Part shown: positions 44,326 to 48,864 of the stretch, in pieces
Numbering within the stretch: the first letter of the stretch is position 1
Layout: every line of letters begins with the position of its first letter
Source of the DNA: Maribellus sediminis
Lineage (GTDB): Bacteria > Bacteroidota > Bacteroidia > Bacteroidales > Prolixibacteraceae
Length of the DNA stretch: 64,000 nucleotides
Direction: 5' to 3'
NCBI RefSeq assembly: GCF_011799805.1
Contig: NZ_WXUB01000001.1
Location: 124,001 to 188,000, forward strand
The notes under the pieces: generated by a model
What the model was told of the DNA's origin: nothing
What the model saw: the letters and a program-made list of their open reading frames with translations, nothing else
The model's database searches: none
Translations under genes and position numbers: made by a program

Positions 44326-45267
44326 ATGAATAAAAGAGAATTTCTAAAAGGACTTGGCTTGATTACAGCCGGCGGTATGGTGACAAGTGCCATTAACCCG
44401 CTTTCTGCTGCAACAAGTGTCAGCAGTTTACCGGCCAAAAAGAAAATTGGTTTGCAACTCTATTCGCTCGGAAAAGAATTAACCGACGACGTTCCAGCCG
44501 GATTGAAAAAAGTGGCTAAAATTGGCTATGCAACGGCAGAGGCAGCCGGTTATCGCGAGCGGAAAATGTATGGTTACGATATTGCCGAATTTATAAAGGT
44601 AGCGGATGATTCGGGTTTGAAAGTATCCGGATCGCATGTAAATCCGCCGGTGCGTAAGTACACCAAAGACAATAAAAGTGAAATTGCCGATTTTTGGAAG
44701 GCGACGGTTGAAGATCACGTAAAACTTGGTGTTTCATCCCTGGTTCAGCCAGGAATGCCACAAGTAGAAAGTAACGAGGATGCAGCAATGGTTTGCGAGG
44801 TTTTTAATAATGCCGGAGAGATTGCAAAATCGGCAGGCATTAAATGGGGCTATCATAACCACAGCGGCGAATTTAAACGCGTTGTAAAGCCTGAAGATAA
44901 GGAGAAGCAAAGTAATCCGTGGCAACGTGTAGGCGACGTGATTTACGACCTGATGCTGAACGGAACTGATCCGGACCTTGTATTCTTCGAAATGGATGTG
45001 TACTGGACAGTAATGGGCCAAAACGATCCGTTGGAGTATTTTAAAAAATACGCCGGCAGGTTCCCCGTGTTACATATTAAAGACCGCAAAGTTCTTGGTC
45101 AATCGGGAATGATGAACTTCAAGAATATTTTCACCAAAGCCTATGAAAACGGGCTCGATGAATTTTTTGTTGAACTGGAAGGGATTGGAAAAGAAGATAA
45201 TATGACGCAGTTTGAGGGCGTTGAGGCCTGTTTCAATTACCTGAACAAAGCTTCGTTTGTAAAATAA
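44326..45267 (+). CDS. Exported sugar phosphate isomerase/epimerase family protein (TIM barrel)
   Basis: A 313-residue AP endonuclease 2-type TIM barrel, the family of xylose isomerase-like and 3-keto-sugar epimerase/isomerase enzymes. It has a Tat-like N-terminus (NKREFLKGLGLITAGGM, with KR in place of RR), then KIGLQLYSLGKEL, WGYHNHSGEF, FEMDVYWTV and FPVLHIKDR, in which the His, Glu and Asp residues would bind the metal. It follows the Gfo/Idh gene and ends at a strong bidirectional terminator. Its last codons (NKASFVK plus stop) and that terminator occur a second time at 46288-46343. Confidence 0.88.
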   Translation: MNKREFLKGLGLITAGGMVTSAINPLSAATSVSSLPAKKKIGLQLYSLGKELTDDVPAGLKKVAKIGYATAEAAGYRERKMYGYDIAEFIKVADDSGLKVSGSHVNPPVRKYTKDNKSEIADFWKATVEDHVKLGVSSLVQPGMPQVESNEDAAMVCEVFNNAGEIAKSAGIKWGYHNHSGEFKRVVKPEDKEKQSNPWQRVGDVIYDLMLNGTDPDLVFFEMDVYWTVMGQNDPLEYFKKYAGRFPVLHIKDRKVLGQSGMMNFKNIFTKAYENGLDEFFVELEGIGKEDNMTQFEGVEACFNYLNKASFVK

Positions 45268-45318
45268 AGGCCAGGGATCCGATCCCTCCAAGGGATCGGA
45301 TCCTTTATTTTTTTAACC
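45245..45318. repeat. Duplicated boundary, copy A: isomerase tail plus terminator
   Basis: The segment starting ACAAAGCTTCG (from 45245) is repeated from 46288, an offset of 1043 bases. The first 45 bases are identical; the next 25 differ at only a few positions; beyond that the two copies run into the 3' ends of the diverged lipoprotein genes. Confidence 0.9.
45275..45303. terminator. Bidirectional terminator between isomerase and lipoprotein A
   Basis: A perfect 13-bp stem (GGATCCGATCCCT / AGGGATCGGATCC) with a CCA loop. On the plus strand it is followed by TTTATTTTTTT; on the minus strand by CTGGCCTTTATTTT. It can end both converging genes. Confidence 0.9.
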
Positions 45319-45321
45319 CTG

Positions 45322-45708
45322 CTAATTCTCTATGGGCACCGCGTTGTTGTAATCTTCTTGGGTGATTTTAACTATCCTTTCTTCAAGTAGTAAAGCATGG
45401 GCCGAATCCGTGAGGACTAATAGCTTTTTAGAATCAAATACTATACGTACAGAATCTACAGAGGCAATAGAGAAAAAAGACCGACTATCCGAATCTTCAC
45501 CCATTTGTCTTTCAAATTCCAGCCTAGAATTTGGTGATAAAAATATACTATCAGATACAGATGTCCCTCTATTTCGATATCCTACAAGCGAAACATCAAA
45601 ATCTGTATCATTTACCAGGGTATAGGTTATTGTAGGTTGGTTAGTGTACCAACAAGAATACAACGGTAACATTAATAAAAAATATATAATGATTTTTTTT
45701 GTTTTCAT
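45322..45708 (-). CDS. Small lipoprotein A of the duplicated cassette
   Basis: A 128-residue predicted lipoprotein (KKIIIYFLLMLPLYSC, Cys19). The remainder is a beta-rich domain with no recognised family. It is a distant paralogue of the protein at 46364-46801: both have a ITYT/ITYFN strand after the lipobox, a VDSVRI/NDSVRID strand and the same C-terminal motif IT(Q/E)EDYNNA. It lies 9 bases downstream of the truncated peptidase gene, the same order as in the complete cassette. Function is unknown; the constant pairing with a peptidase suggests a partner or inhibitor (inference). Confidence 0.75.
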   Translation of the reverse strand: MKTKKIIIYFLLMLPLYSCWYTNQPTITYTLVNDTDFDVSLVGYRNRGTSVSDSIFLSPNSRLEFERQMGEDSDSRSFFSIASVDSVRIVFDSKKLLVLTDSAHALLLEERIVKITQEDYNNAVPIEN

Positions 45709-45717
45709 GGTAGAATT

Positions 45718-46347
45718 CTATTTGTAAGTTGTAAAAAGATAATCAATGTTTTCTTCAGTAGGGTTGTCAAACATCTTTTTCAAATCATCTCTCCATGCCC
45801 ACCAGTTTCCTGAGGATGTCGGAAGAGCCCTTTCAATCTCGGATAAGGTATAACCCCAAGCTTGATCATTCGGTCGCAGGCTATTAAATTTTCCTTGGTT
45901 ATAGTCATCAATTAAATCAATTACTAATGGTGTATATCCTTTTAAATCATCAATTTCTGAAATATCAACCAATTGATATTTATTATTATAAATGCCATAT
46001 CCTTGATAAATATCGTTCGTTATTTGCCATTCAACTCCTACGGCCCAACTTTCAGGTATTCTTTTATTAACCACCCACAAGATATCTCCATAGCCAGAAT
46101 CCCAATGTGATACATGTGCCAATTCGTGAATTGTTGTGCCAAAAATACCCCTACTGTCTTTGCCATTTCTATGTATGAGCACCGTCGCCGATTGTGCAAT
46201 AACATTCAAATCAAAAAAATGAGAAGCAGAAAAGAAGTCAACCCTACCACCGATATGGAGTCGTTGTTCCAAAAGACCTTTCTCGTCACAAAGCTTCGTT
46301 TGTAAAATAAAGGCCAGGGATCCGATCCCTCCGAGGGATCGGAGCAT
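45718..46347 (-). pseudogene. Truncated HExxH peptidase A, N-terminus replaced at a duplication junction
   Basis: An open frame of 209 residues that aligns with only the last third of the complete peptidase at 46812-48596. Conserved parts are IFGTTIHELAHVSH (zinc motif HELAH), PESWAVGVEWQITND (candidate third ligand Glu), LIDDYNQG and PNDQAWGYTL. The first 20 or so residues are not peptidase: they are the antisense of the duplicated terminator and isomerase tail (46288-46347). Homology to the full protein begins at TKLC, exactly at the junction, so the signal peptide and about 390 residues are missing. The frame remains open because the junction preserves phase. Probably non-functional, or a cytoplasmic remnant. 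Confidence 0.8.
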
Positions 46348-46353
46348 TTATTT
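46288..46353. repeat. Duplicated boundary, copy B
   Basis: Second copy of the isomerase tail and terminator found at 45245. It contains the isomerase's last seven codons (KASFVK and stop) out of context, within the 5' part of the truncated peptidase frame on the opposite strand. Confidence 0.9.
46318..46343 (-). terminator. Terminator after lipoprotein B (decayed copy)
   Basis: TCCGATCCCT and AGGGATCGGA form a 10-bp stem with a CCG loop; the outer three base pairs of copy A are lost through substitutions at 46344-46345. It ends the minus-strand lipoprotein B gene. Confidence 0.7.
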
Positions 46354-46363
46354 TTTTAACCTG

Positions 46364-46801
46364 CTAATACCCTATCAGCAACGCATTATTGTAATCTTCT
46401 TCGGTGATTGTATAAGTATATCTGAAGGTGCTTTCACTTACCTTACCACCAGCATAATTATCAATAATAAGAATATTCCTTGACGATGTATCATTATAGA
46501 AATAATCAATTCTAACAGAATCGTTAAACACAATACTTGCTTTAATCAAAGACTTTCCAAACGGATACTTTGATGTTTGATTTTCGCCATCTTCAACATA
46601 GAAGAATTCAGCCTCGGCCCCTTGATTTATAACCGTTACAGAGTCTAAGACAATTGAGTGACCAGCATCTGTTCTTGGTGCGATTATTTTAAGGTCACTA
46701 TTTGTTGTATTGATAAAGTTAAAATAGGTAATAGATTCGTTGTCTTTAGTACAAGATGTTAGGAATAAAACTCCAATAAAAAATACAAATAACTTCTTCA
46801 T
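46364..46801 (-). CDS. Small lipoprotein B of the peptidase cassette
   Basis: A 145-residue predicted lipoprotein (MKKLFVFFIGVLFLTSC, Cys17) with a beta-rich body and no recognised family. It is paired with the full-length peptidase: its ATG is 10 bases after that gene's stop. It shares the C-terminal TITEEDYNNA motif and several strands with lipoprotein A at 45322, but is otherwise strongly diverged. Confidence 0.75.
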   Translation of the reverse strand: MKKLFVFFIGVLFLTSCTKDNESITYFNFINTTNSDLKIIAPRTDAGHSIVLDSVTVINQGAEAEFFYVEDGENQTSKYPFGKSLIKASIVFNDSVRIDYFYNDTSSRNILIIDNYAGGKVSESTFRYTYTITEEDYNNALLIGY

Positions 46802-46811
46802 AGAAAAGATT

Positions 46812-48596
46812 TTAATATAATTCTAGTAGTAATTCTATCTGAGCATCGGTTGTGCCATTCAACTTATATGCTTTAAGCGCATCTTCCAAACTACTTATAC
46901 CATACGTGTCTTCAAGAATATGGTAATTAATATCTGCTAAAGTGTATCCGAAAATCTGATCATTCGGATAATTATTATTACCGGGTATATTTAAACCATA
47001 ATGTAATCCTCCGTTTCTTTGATTAAAATCATCTAATAAATCAATAAAAACTGGAGAATATTCCCATTGAACGTCAGTTCTTCTCCAATCTTGTTTATCA
47101 TCATGATTGAAATTTGTCATCCCATAGCTGTGATACTCATCATTAGTAATCGCCCACTCAACAGCTTCTGCCCAGCTTTCATAAATAACCTTATTTACTT
47201 GCCAGTACTGAATGTTACCGAGGGACTGGGAATGTACCTGGTGCCCCAATTCATGAGAGGTCGTTCCAAATATTAAATTAGTAGGTTTGTAACTCCCGCT
47301 TGAATATTTTCCATAAACTTTGATATCAGGTAATATACCACTACTACTCCAATCTCCCCAGAAAACACCAGAACCTTCTTCGTCAATATAACATAGCTTA
47401 GTTTTACTCCCGTCTGAAAGAATTGGTCGTCTTATTCCCAAATTATTTTTATAAAACTGTTTGTATGCTGCACGATGTATTGTTGCAAACATAATTGATT
47501 TTCCACCTTGTTCAATATTAAGATTCCAATCACCACTCTGATTCGGACCATTAAAATAAGCTTGCCCAAATGAACCATCACGTATATCGTAGTATGCCCT
47601 TTCCCATTTAATACTATAGTTGGCATCGTTGCTAAAGGTTCCATTGCAGGAGTAGTTTCCATTTGCATCGGTAATGTCGGAATAGGTAGTAAACCACCGG
47701 CGAGCGCGTACCTCAACTCCTTCTAGCGGAATGTAATGGCTGTTTACACTGTTGGTTACATAATGATAAATTGGTCGGGCACAAATATTCTCACCCTCGG
47801 GAATTTCACCCGTATTCTCATCCCCGTCGGCGGGTACCTCTTCGGTTGGGTCACCTGCGTTAACCGGCTCTCCGGTATCGCAATAAATATATTCGTAATG
47901 GCTAAAAACTTTAATCCGGGTGGAATATGAATTGATAATATCATCGAATACTTTTATGTTTCCGGCAGGTCTCCAACTTGTCGATTTTAATGTGTTTTCA
48001 GTTTGTGCGTTTTCGTCCAGGTTTCCGGTAATCCGCAACGCTTCGTTTTCCAGTTTTAACCAGTCGAAATGTTCTATTCCTGTACTTTTTAGTTCTGTCA
48101 ATTCTTCTCCATATTCAGGTAAATACAAATTTGCAAGTTTCTGGTACTGCACCTTAGGAAAAACATAATCAACAGGTACTACCGTATATTGCCAGGTTAT
48201 CTCGTTTTTAGGAATTTCCGGGTCGTGGTAATGTGTGCCACCTCTTTTAATTTCAACATCGAGAGGATAATCGTAAATATAAAGCGTTGTATCGCGGGTT
48301 ATTAAATCAAGTTCCTTTGTGTTTTTGGGCCTGAACCGAACATAGAAATGGGTAGCCTCGATTTCTAAACCCGATTTGAGTTTGTTTTCGGTTTGTAAGT
48401 TTTCATAGGCAATTTTCATGTTTTCAACCGAATAAGGATTTTCAAGTTGTTTTCCCAGTATCATAGGGCCATCTTTGAAATGATCTTGTTCTGCAATAAT
48501 TTCTCCATCCTGTTCATGAGAATAAAACTCTTCTTTCACACAACCAGCGAAAGTGAATAATAGCATAATAATACCTAAAAAAGCTGATCTTTTCAT
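46812..48596 (-). CDS. HExxH zincin-type lipoprotein (complete peptidase B)
   Basis: A 594-residue predicted surface or periplasmic lipoprotein (MKRSAFLGIIMLLFTFAGC, Cys19). The N-terminal 200 residues are unrecognised. Residues 265-350 resemble a carboxypeptidase-regulatory-like beta domain (IPLEGVEVRARRW...ITDANGNYSCNGTF). The C-terminal third holds a zinc metallopeptidase motif FGTTSHELGHQVHSQS with a downstream YESWAEAVEW, in which a Glu about 26 residues after the first His could be the third ligand (gluzincin pattern). The spacing is identical in the truncated copy. No named peptidase family could be assigned. A nine-G tract lies about 200 bases upstream of its start. Confidence 0.78.
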   Translation of the reverse strand: MKRSAFLGIIMLLFTFAGCVKEEFYSHEQDGEIIAEQDHFKDGPMILGKQLENPYSVENMKIAYENLQTENKLKSGLEIEATHFYVRFRPKNTKELDLITRDTTLYIYDYPLDVEIKRGGTHYHDPEIPKNEITWQYTVVPVDYVFPKVQYQKLANLYLPEYGEELTELKSTGIEHFDWLKLENEALRITGNLDENAQTENTLKSTSWRPAGNIKVFDDIINSYSTRIKVFSHYEYIYCDTGEPVNAGDPTEEVPADGDENTGEIPEGENICARPIYHYVTNSVNSHYIPLEGVEVRARRWFTTYSDITDANGNYSCNGTFSNDANYSIKWERAYYDIRDGSFGQAYFNGPNQSGDWNLNIEQGGKSIMFATIHRAAYKQFYKNNLGIRRPILSDGSKTKLCYIDEEGSGVFWGDWSSSGILPDIKVYGKYSSGSYKPTNLIFGTTSHELGHQVHSQSLGNIQYWQVNKVIYESWAEAVEWAITNDEYHSYGMTNFNHDDKQDWRRTDVQWEYSPVFIDLLDDFNQRNGGLHYGLNIPGNNNYPNDQIFGYTLADINYHILEDTYGISSLEDALKAYKLNGTTDAQIELLLELY

Positions 48597-48864
48597 AATT
48601 TTGTAGTGTTTCTGGGGATTTGGAGGTGCAACTCCATTTCCCTGTTAATAAAAATAAATATTTGGGCCGGAGGAAACTCCGGTCTTTTTGTAACTGTGAT
48701 TTGGGTATATTTCATAAAATAATTCGGAATTGAGGTTAAATATTTCTTGTGAAATTAGAAGATTTATTTTATTAAACCAACATTTTGATAATTAGGGGGG
48801 GGGTAATTTAGAGTTGTTCAAAATAAAAGAATCCGACTTTTAAAAGGTGATTAATACCAAATAG
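48597..48864. other. Gap upstream of the peptidase operon with a G9 tract
   Basis: This AT-rich gap has no gene. It should contain the promoter of the minus-strand peptidase/lipoprotein operon, but no exact TAnnTTTG box is visible. A run of nine G at 48795-48803 is the longest such homopolymer I noticed in the window and lies about 200 bases upstream of the peptidase start. Confidence 0.55.

Follow-up and report, generated by a model that had tools for sequence, protein, structure and literature searches.

Polymorphic weapons have been described on Rhs, contact-dependent inhibition (CDI), type VI secretion system (T6SS) and SitA carriers (PMC5562445, PMC3482391, PMC3967940). Among these, the orphan rhs-CT/rhsI modules consist of a displaced 3' toxin fragment, usually without start signals, and a partner gene, downstream of a full gene (PMC3967940). 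The focus of this study is a locus of related layout in Maribellus sediminis, located in the window (the whole stretch of 64,000 nucleotides that was analysed, NZ_WXUB01000001.1 positions 124,001-188,000, from a genome of 5.6 Mb), which comprises a full metallopeptidase gene with a small lipoprotein gene and, beyond a repeated boundary, a headless C-terminal peptidase fragment with a second small lipoprotein gene. As in the orphan rhs modules, the full gene, which has a different tip, is followed downstream by a displaced 3' fragment and a partner (PMC3967940), and by this analogy the locus is taken to work like an orphan toxin/immunity locus; unlike in rhs, its head is a lipoprotein of about 350 residues, its tips are of one fold and both partners are lipoproteins. 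On balance, we favour its reading as a polymorphic cassette of toxin/immunity-like type, made up of a surface protease and its inhibitor and accompanied by an orphan module that was displaced; the exchange-and-orphan logic would then operate on two lipoproteins, the protease at the surface and the protein that probably inhibits it.

SitA/SitI of Myxococcus likewise combine a lipoprotein head, a variable C-terminus, a partner gene and a mobile setting, but the SitA C-termini are mutually unrelated, one being a predicted tRNase, and no such lipoprotein partner is described in the cited parts of that account (PMC5562445). In Bacteroides, C10 proteases are co-transcribed with small exported inhibitor-like Bfi/Bti proteins, some of them lipoproteins (PMC2873492, PMC3462683). 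By its layout, an exported protease beside a small exported, inhibitor-like lipoprotein, the window locus resembles these pairs, although the C10/Bfi enzyme is a cysteine protease and neither tip exchange nor orphan tips are described in the cited portions of those reports (PMC2873492, PMC3462683). In the EsaG and TipC arrays of type VII secretion systems (T7SS), recombination between homology blocks, one of which spans the gene end and the downstream intergenic region, yields strings of non-identical immunity genes; these arrays concern immunity genes only, whereas at the present locus a tip fragment would move with its partner (PMC9484751). Tox-MPTase polymorphic toxins also carry a HExxH peptidase domain as their C-terminal part, but typically with Rhs repeats, and the window proteins match no such Pfam family, the comparison having been made via Pfam; in the cited part of that survey, Imm65 is the sole apparent lipoprotein among the immunity proteins (PMC3482391). 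The predicted fold of the full peptidase is thermolysin-like, with the HExxH motif and downstream Glu of M4 and M1 peptidases, but at ~8-15% identity to these in structural alignments of the model. Because neither the window protein nor 24 family members match the M4 sequence family at E <= 0.01, the peptidase is not filed as M4; among 24 members, M1 is weakly matched in one and WLM in two. The peptidase/lipoprotein pair is not described in the titles or abstract openings among the literature matches listed.

Layout of the locus and exchange of the tip

The full metallopeptidase lipoprotein (46812..48596, minus strand) has 594 residues, with the motif HELGHQVH (HELGH at 47241-47255) and a conserved Glu473, and is composed of a conserved head (47451..48479, minus strand, as used for profile A3) and a variable class I tip (46815..47387, minus strand, as aligned). 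Leftwards along the minus strand follow its partner, a small lipoprotein of 145 residues (46364..46801), copy 2 of the boundary repeat (46288..46361), the orphan tip (45718..46287), a second small lipoprotein of 128 residues (45322..45708; lipobox LYSC, end ITQEDYNNAVPIEN), which is the putative inhibitor or immunity protein of the displaced tip, and copy 1 of the repeat (45245..45318). Since both cassettes lie on the minus strand, transcription would proceed from peptidase to lipoprotein, presumably on a common transcript, towards a neighbouring isomerase-like gene. The earlier note had placed the same two-gene cassette after each copy of the repeat. Lipoprotein and HExxH peptidase sequence are indeed found at both, but the left peptidase is a C-terminal fragment of 189 codons (class II, HELAHVSH, HELAH at 46114-46128), with HExxH intact and without head or signal peptide. 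Its frame stays open up to a nominal ATG at 46345-46347, inside copy 2, to which its start is joined at 46287/46288; it begins at DEKGLLEQRLHIGG, the point where the tip of Maribellus luteus, of the same genus group, starts after its head. As read from the sequence, the left-hand copy represents a displaced fragment; a tip with its lipoprotein would have moved, not two whole genes. A protein search of the own genome found no peptidase-family places beyond the two in the window.

The boundary repeat comprises the 3' end of the neighbouring gene, which encodes a xylose-isomerase-like TIM-barrel protein (PF01261; 44326..45267, plus strand), and a hairpin terminator (stem 45273-45305). The spacing of 1043 bases and the identity of the first 45 bases stand as noted before, but copy 2 does not end at 46353; it reaches 46361, fading into the 3' end of the adjoining lipoprotein gene, and 71/74 positions are identical between the copies. 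The isomerase part of the repeat has no further match in the own genome at E <= 0.001. Between these near-identical flanks the genes are diverged, as had been proposed: DNA identity amounts to 234/362 (64.6%) for the lipoprotein genes against a shuffled null of 63.5 +/- 2.2, and to 340/525 (64.8%) for the peptidase C-parts against 63.4 +/- 2.0, so that neither full-length alignment is better than shuffled sequence, though short blocks of 72-82% identity occur. At the protein level, the two tips share 69/174 residues (40%) and the two lipoproteins 35/117 (30%) or 44/126 (35%) in two alignments.

Comparison with M. luteus, whose gene is split near the N-terminus in its assembly and was kept as two pieces, locates the break. 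The head of the window peptidase is 81% identical to that of M. luteus (259/319) and its tip 35% (63/181); codon-wise identity runs at 67-86% in blocks to residue 360, falls to 58% at 361-390 and stays at 36-57% beyond, hence a collapse at residues ~360-390. The orphan tip, in turn, shares 99/183 residues (54%) with the M. luteus tip (BLAST 105/195, E 3e-62). The closest full gene to the window peptidase is that of Tangfeifania diversioriginum (63% over residues 6-594), with 119/190 identical residues in the tip.

Trees were built from 19 heads and 20 tips (the orphan added), hand-chosen from the 60 genes described below. A 100/100 branch splits the tips into two deep classes, I and II. In the head tree, the window and M. 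luteus are sisters (99/97), while the tip tree joins the full window tip to that of Tangfeifania (99/96) and unites the orphan tip with that of M. luteus (100/99). Head sisters with opposite tip classes are found in three pairs: window/M. luteus, L059/L061 of one Paludibacter metagenome-assembled genome (100/99) and L040/L049 (99/98). For all three, approximately unbiased (AU) tests reject a common tip clade (p 4e-36, 2e-4 and 5e-46, respectively); they also reject a grouping of the window head with the Tangfeifania head (p 0.024) and a clade uniting both window tips (p 6e-32), all of these values being optimistic because the groups were named after the data had been seen. The rejection of the last clade argues for tip exchange instead of duplication and drift. 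It bears out the claim of the earlier note that this is no simple recent duplication, and together with the two groupings in the tip tree it supports the further suggestion made there, by analogy with arrays of orphan toxin/immunity genes, that recombination brought in a second allele.

Synonymous divergence (dS) was compared in 11 hand-picked pairs, with six close ones from one clade; for L069/L078, the contig of one member ends 175 bases after the gene and its partner is unseen. In four of the six (heads 95-96% identical), dS is 0.19-0.29 in the heads versus 1.45-2.30 in the tips, a 5-10-fold rise; it rises less in L076/L078 (0.69 to 1.28) and falls in L078/L079 (0.87 to 0.57). As synonymous sites jump in this one clade, selection at the protein level is insufficient as an explanation. 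Four pairs of homologues without a downstream small lipoprotein (unpartnered) include two with no rise (head/tip 2.09/1.49 and 1.33/1.03) and two with a saturated value, and they are no matched control because their head dS is far higher. The values for the window and M. luteus (1.86/1.95) are both near saturation and uninformative. A conserved N-terminal head with a diversified C-terminal tip swapped by recombination, a property of polymorphic toxins, is thus indicated by the trees, the AU tests and the dS jump of one clade.

Taken together, exchange with displacement at this locus appears highly probable. In the proposed order of events, the same head would have been combined in an ancestor with a class II tip, to which a small lipoprotein of its own belonged. 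DNA comprising the isomerase 3' end, the terminator, another small lipoprotein and the class I tip that goes with it would then have come in; at one side it would have been linked to the head through homology, and at the other it would have come to lie where head and tip meet. The result would have been a new chimeric gene, with the old tip and old small lipoprotein stranded as an orphan module. A candidate microhomology for the right junction is ACAAAGCTTCGTTT in the isomerase 3' end, alike in 12/14 positions to ACATAGCTTAGTTT of the class I tip (47391-47404); the class II tip of M. luteus is without the ACATAGCTTAGTTT-like stretch. The full gene would encode a lipoprotein of the outer membrane, probably exposed at the surface, in which a conserved head carries a catalytic tip of thermolysin-like type; the sequence CVKEEF after its lipobox fits the surface export signal C-X-K-(D/E)2-X. 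The small lipoprotein encoded just downstream would bind and block the tip in the producer, and the orphan lipoprotein may still guard against neighbours bearing the old tip.

Recurrence in other Bacteroidota

With a genome sample of one genome per species, a scan of genome contigs yielded 61 loci and, after six duplicate loci had been removed (L038, L039, L044, L071, L085 and L092, records of L021, L020, L022, L023, L024 and L025, respectively), 60 full-length genes with head and tip; genes of fewer than 430 residues or with fewer than 180 residues of head were also excluded. The family is thinly spread: counting the own genome in each case, the full protein is matched in 9/101 genomes, the tip profile in 5/140 genomes of the family, and the head in 3/395 genomes of the class and 3/37 of the genus. 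HExxH is present in 58 of the 60 tips. The other two, L072 and L081, are full-length homologues with HAFAH in its place and are probably inactive as peptidases. A small lipoprotein gene, a candidate immunity gene such as adjoins polymorphic toxins, was assigned downstream of 36 of the 60 peptidase genes (4 of them by hand). The lipobox, a feature shared with SitA, is readable in 32 of these 36 peptidase genes. Head matches beyond the main gene are limited to a second gene in L022 and L043 and the split N-terminus of M. luteus.

Displaced tips are not confined to the window. A tblastn search of all 60 tips against flanks of up to 5 kb, often shorter, found 3' tip fragments, from 25 residues to nearly a whole tip, downstream of eight genes (window, L024, L043, L046, L049, L052, L063 and L095; a match in L054, to the frame-shifted tip of the same gene, was left out of the count), in line with the orphan tip/immunity modules of polymorphic toxins. 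Except in L043, the fragment is followed by a lipoprotein-like gene (seven loci); that of L095 is larger (218 residues) and was not flagged by the lipobox pattern. In the flanks searched, upstream fragments were absent save those of the first gene of the tandem in L043. Conserved ends around a diverged middle recur as well, most clearly in L043 with a flank of 158 bp at 98%, and in L046 and L052, where the lipoprotein 3' end and an apparent hairpin terminator, judged by eye, are repeated at 89% and 86%. Partial blocks of conserved ends are seen in L076, L078 and L083. In L024, L063 and L091 the repeat spans whole modules (81-94%), and we therefore regard these as plain duplications. Strings of three to four non-identical lipoproteins behind one peptidase, called by pattern so that single members may be wrong, occur in L024, L063, L064, L070, L076, L078, L079, L083 and L091. 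Since the pattern recurs in other genomes, an assembly chimera as the sole cause of the window layout is unlikely.

Head and tip identities were contrasted by pairs, with L042, L069, L081, L095, L027, L028 and L041 set aside and L022, L043 (twice) and L086 counted as partnered by hand. At a head identity of at least 60%, the tip falls short of the head by 15 points or more in 17/21 pairs with both genes partnered versus 0/48 with neither, although pairs are not independent; counted by cluster, the tip lags in 5/7 partnered versus 0/3 unpartnered clusters, the former including one unpartnered and one unseen member. Nine of the homologues without a small lipoprotein (L023, L058, L062, L065, L067, L068, L075, L077 and L087) form one head cluster in which tips lag in 0/36 pairs. 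Several of them adjoin genes that we take, from their look, to be of the DUF3575 and fimbrial types.

As to mobility, a search of 72,556 plasmid records matched one, a mobilizable Chryseobacterium plasmid carrying a peptidase/lipoprotein pair, and a search of 50,697 phage records gave no match at E 1e-5. The proposal that the isomerase-flanked site is itself a hotspot of cassette exchange fared less well. No cassette was found downstream of isomerase orthologues (68-81% identical) in 26 loci of the same genus, of which up to 1.5 kb was read, with shorter stretches in L104 and L108, and the M. luteus peptidase lies ~0.5 Mb from its isomerase gene; a hotspot at the isomerase is therefore not shown across species, and exchange follows the gene pair.

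The small lipoprotein as a putative inhibitor

The 145-residue partner is predicted to be a beta protein of eight strands (pLDDT, the predicted local distance difference test score, 90.6). Its model has no clear fold match, and the absence of staphostatin among the matches listed is uninformative either way. Across 24 aligned small lipoproteins one Cys and one Asn are invariant, and most have an ITEEDY-like end; 33/62 carry at least two acidic residues after the cysteine. The orphan 128-residue lipoprotein matches the family profile at E 9.1e-25, its sequence being itself among the profile rows. Annotation by known families was tried and set aside, the window peptidase and small lipoproteins giving only sub-threshold or chance matches in Pfam and NCBIfam and none in PADLOC; among the small lipoproteins, one immunoglobulin (Ig)-like match at E 0.01 was obtained.

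Covariation of the partner with the tip is partly shown by distance comparisons. In partial Mantel tests over 19 genes, partner distance tracks the tip given the head (r 0.336, p 0.0006 without the last 15 residues; r 0.284, p 0.0024 for the mature protein) and also the head given the tip (r 0.169, p 0.04 and r 0.302, p 0.002, respectively), and a permutation of two-class labels, with 20 modules, falls short of significance (p 0.07, 0.13).

The lipoprotein family reaches beyond these peptidases. Its profile matches 32/101 relatives at E <= 0.001, many of them weakly, and G008, G013 and G060 have full-domain matches (1e-11 to 1e-16) yet no peptidase match. In G008 and G013, of the same genus, the small-lipoprotein gene is one gene away from a C10 peptidase; the G008 protein carries PF01640 and an I69 domain in Pfam, and the C10 profile finds both proteins. 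C10 is found in 13/37 genomes of the genus, and the lipoprotein neighbourhood was read in G008 and G013 only. The C10 catalytic domain has no match in the window proteins and none in the own genome at E <= 0.001. Given this proximity to C10 peptidases and the inhibitor-like partners of C10 proteases in Bacteroides, an inhibitor is the best guess for the small lipoprotein, and we consider this assignment fairly probable. As side observations, L167:3739-9916 and L168:4105-10465, of the same genus, hold a cluster of a C10 peptidase, a lipoprotein of 252-265 residues, a small lipoprotein, DUF4249 and a TonB-receptor-like CarboxypepD_reg/Plug protein (Pfam on L167 only), and G023 (2.2 Mb, same genus) has 11 C10 matches together with two distant relatives of the metallopeptidase (L027, L028).

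Rival readings and neighbouring features

Three observations weigh against the toxin/immunity-like reading. At 50-60% head identity the contrast between partnered and unpartnered pairs is gone or reversed (8/22 versus 45/87), and at the window locus the identities between partners (30-34%) bear no relation to the type of tip; both reduce our confidence. Furthermore, polymorphic toxins combine one head with tips unrelated in fold and activity, which is not the case here, and for this reason the locus is not filed as a member of that class. Use of the protease against other bacteria may occur, though we lean slightly against it. Rather doubtful, in our view, is the broadest extension, namely that Bacteroidota might possess a phylum-wide, undescribed set of weapons in which surface thermolysin-like proteases exchange their catalytic half together with a lipoprotein immunity factor, drawn from one hypervariable beta-protein family guarding against both metallo- and cysteine proteases, with orphan modules being kept. 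Should the toxin/immunity-like reading hold, the locus would offer a naturally occurring set of protease/inhibitor pairs, both matched and mismatched, with unpartnered homologues as a comparison group, and the signs of the same swapping in relatives would suggest a little-known arms-race locus.

The strongest competitor, which we nevertheless judge unlikely, is confined to self-protection: the surface protease would serve in feeding or in interaction with a host and be kept with a private inhibitor, while new protease faces would be selected by inhibitors from outside, by phages or by the immunity of a host, and no antibacterial weapon would be involved. The constancy of the tip fold (HExxH in nearly all) suits this view, as do the location of the small-lipoprotein family close to C10 peptidases, its presence in clusters that include DUF4249 and a receptor-like protein, and the reading of the Bacteroides C10 protease/inhibitor pairs as self-protection (PMC2873492, PMC3462683). 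Lipoprotein strings and orphan modules are, however, typical of toxin/immunity loci, whereas a private inhibitor needs one copy.

It is still less probable, and in our estimate quite improbable, that the small lipoprotein, instead of inhibiting the peptidase, acts as its partner in structure or sorting, or serves as a variable antigen at the surface that moves with the tip. Its lack of a clear fold match, the acidic residues after the cysteine and the weak matching of partner and tip are compatible with such a role, against which stand the presence of several lipoproteins behind one protease and the link to two unrelated protease families. The idea that one cassette was duplicated in tandem and that its genes then diverged fast between conserved flanks, for which the tandem modules with 96% identical flanks and the whole-module copies elsewhere could be cited, is ruled out by the trees and AU tests, which set the window tips in deep separate clades with relatives from other genera, and is made more remote still by the jump at synonymous sites in one clade.

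Two features of the surrounding DNA remain to be mentioned. Parts of the terminator hairpin (45273-45305, 46321-46343) match elsewhere in the own genome (C6:880417-880448) and in several genomes of the genus, and thus belong to a dispersed repeat; an argument for a same-species donor, based on a species-unique terminator, was given up for this reason. Between 45200 and 48950, nine terminator-like sites were found versus 2.5 expected, the longest stem being the hairpin of repeat copy 1. Finally, a homopolymer of nine G at 48795-48803, ~200 bp upstream of the peptidase start, is the sole G/C tract of at least 7 in the window and a possible slippage switch; G/C tracts of at least 8 near the start of the open reading frame occur in 4/58 family genes examined, with ~0.3 expected from the loci overall.

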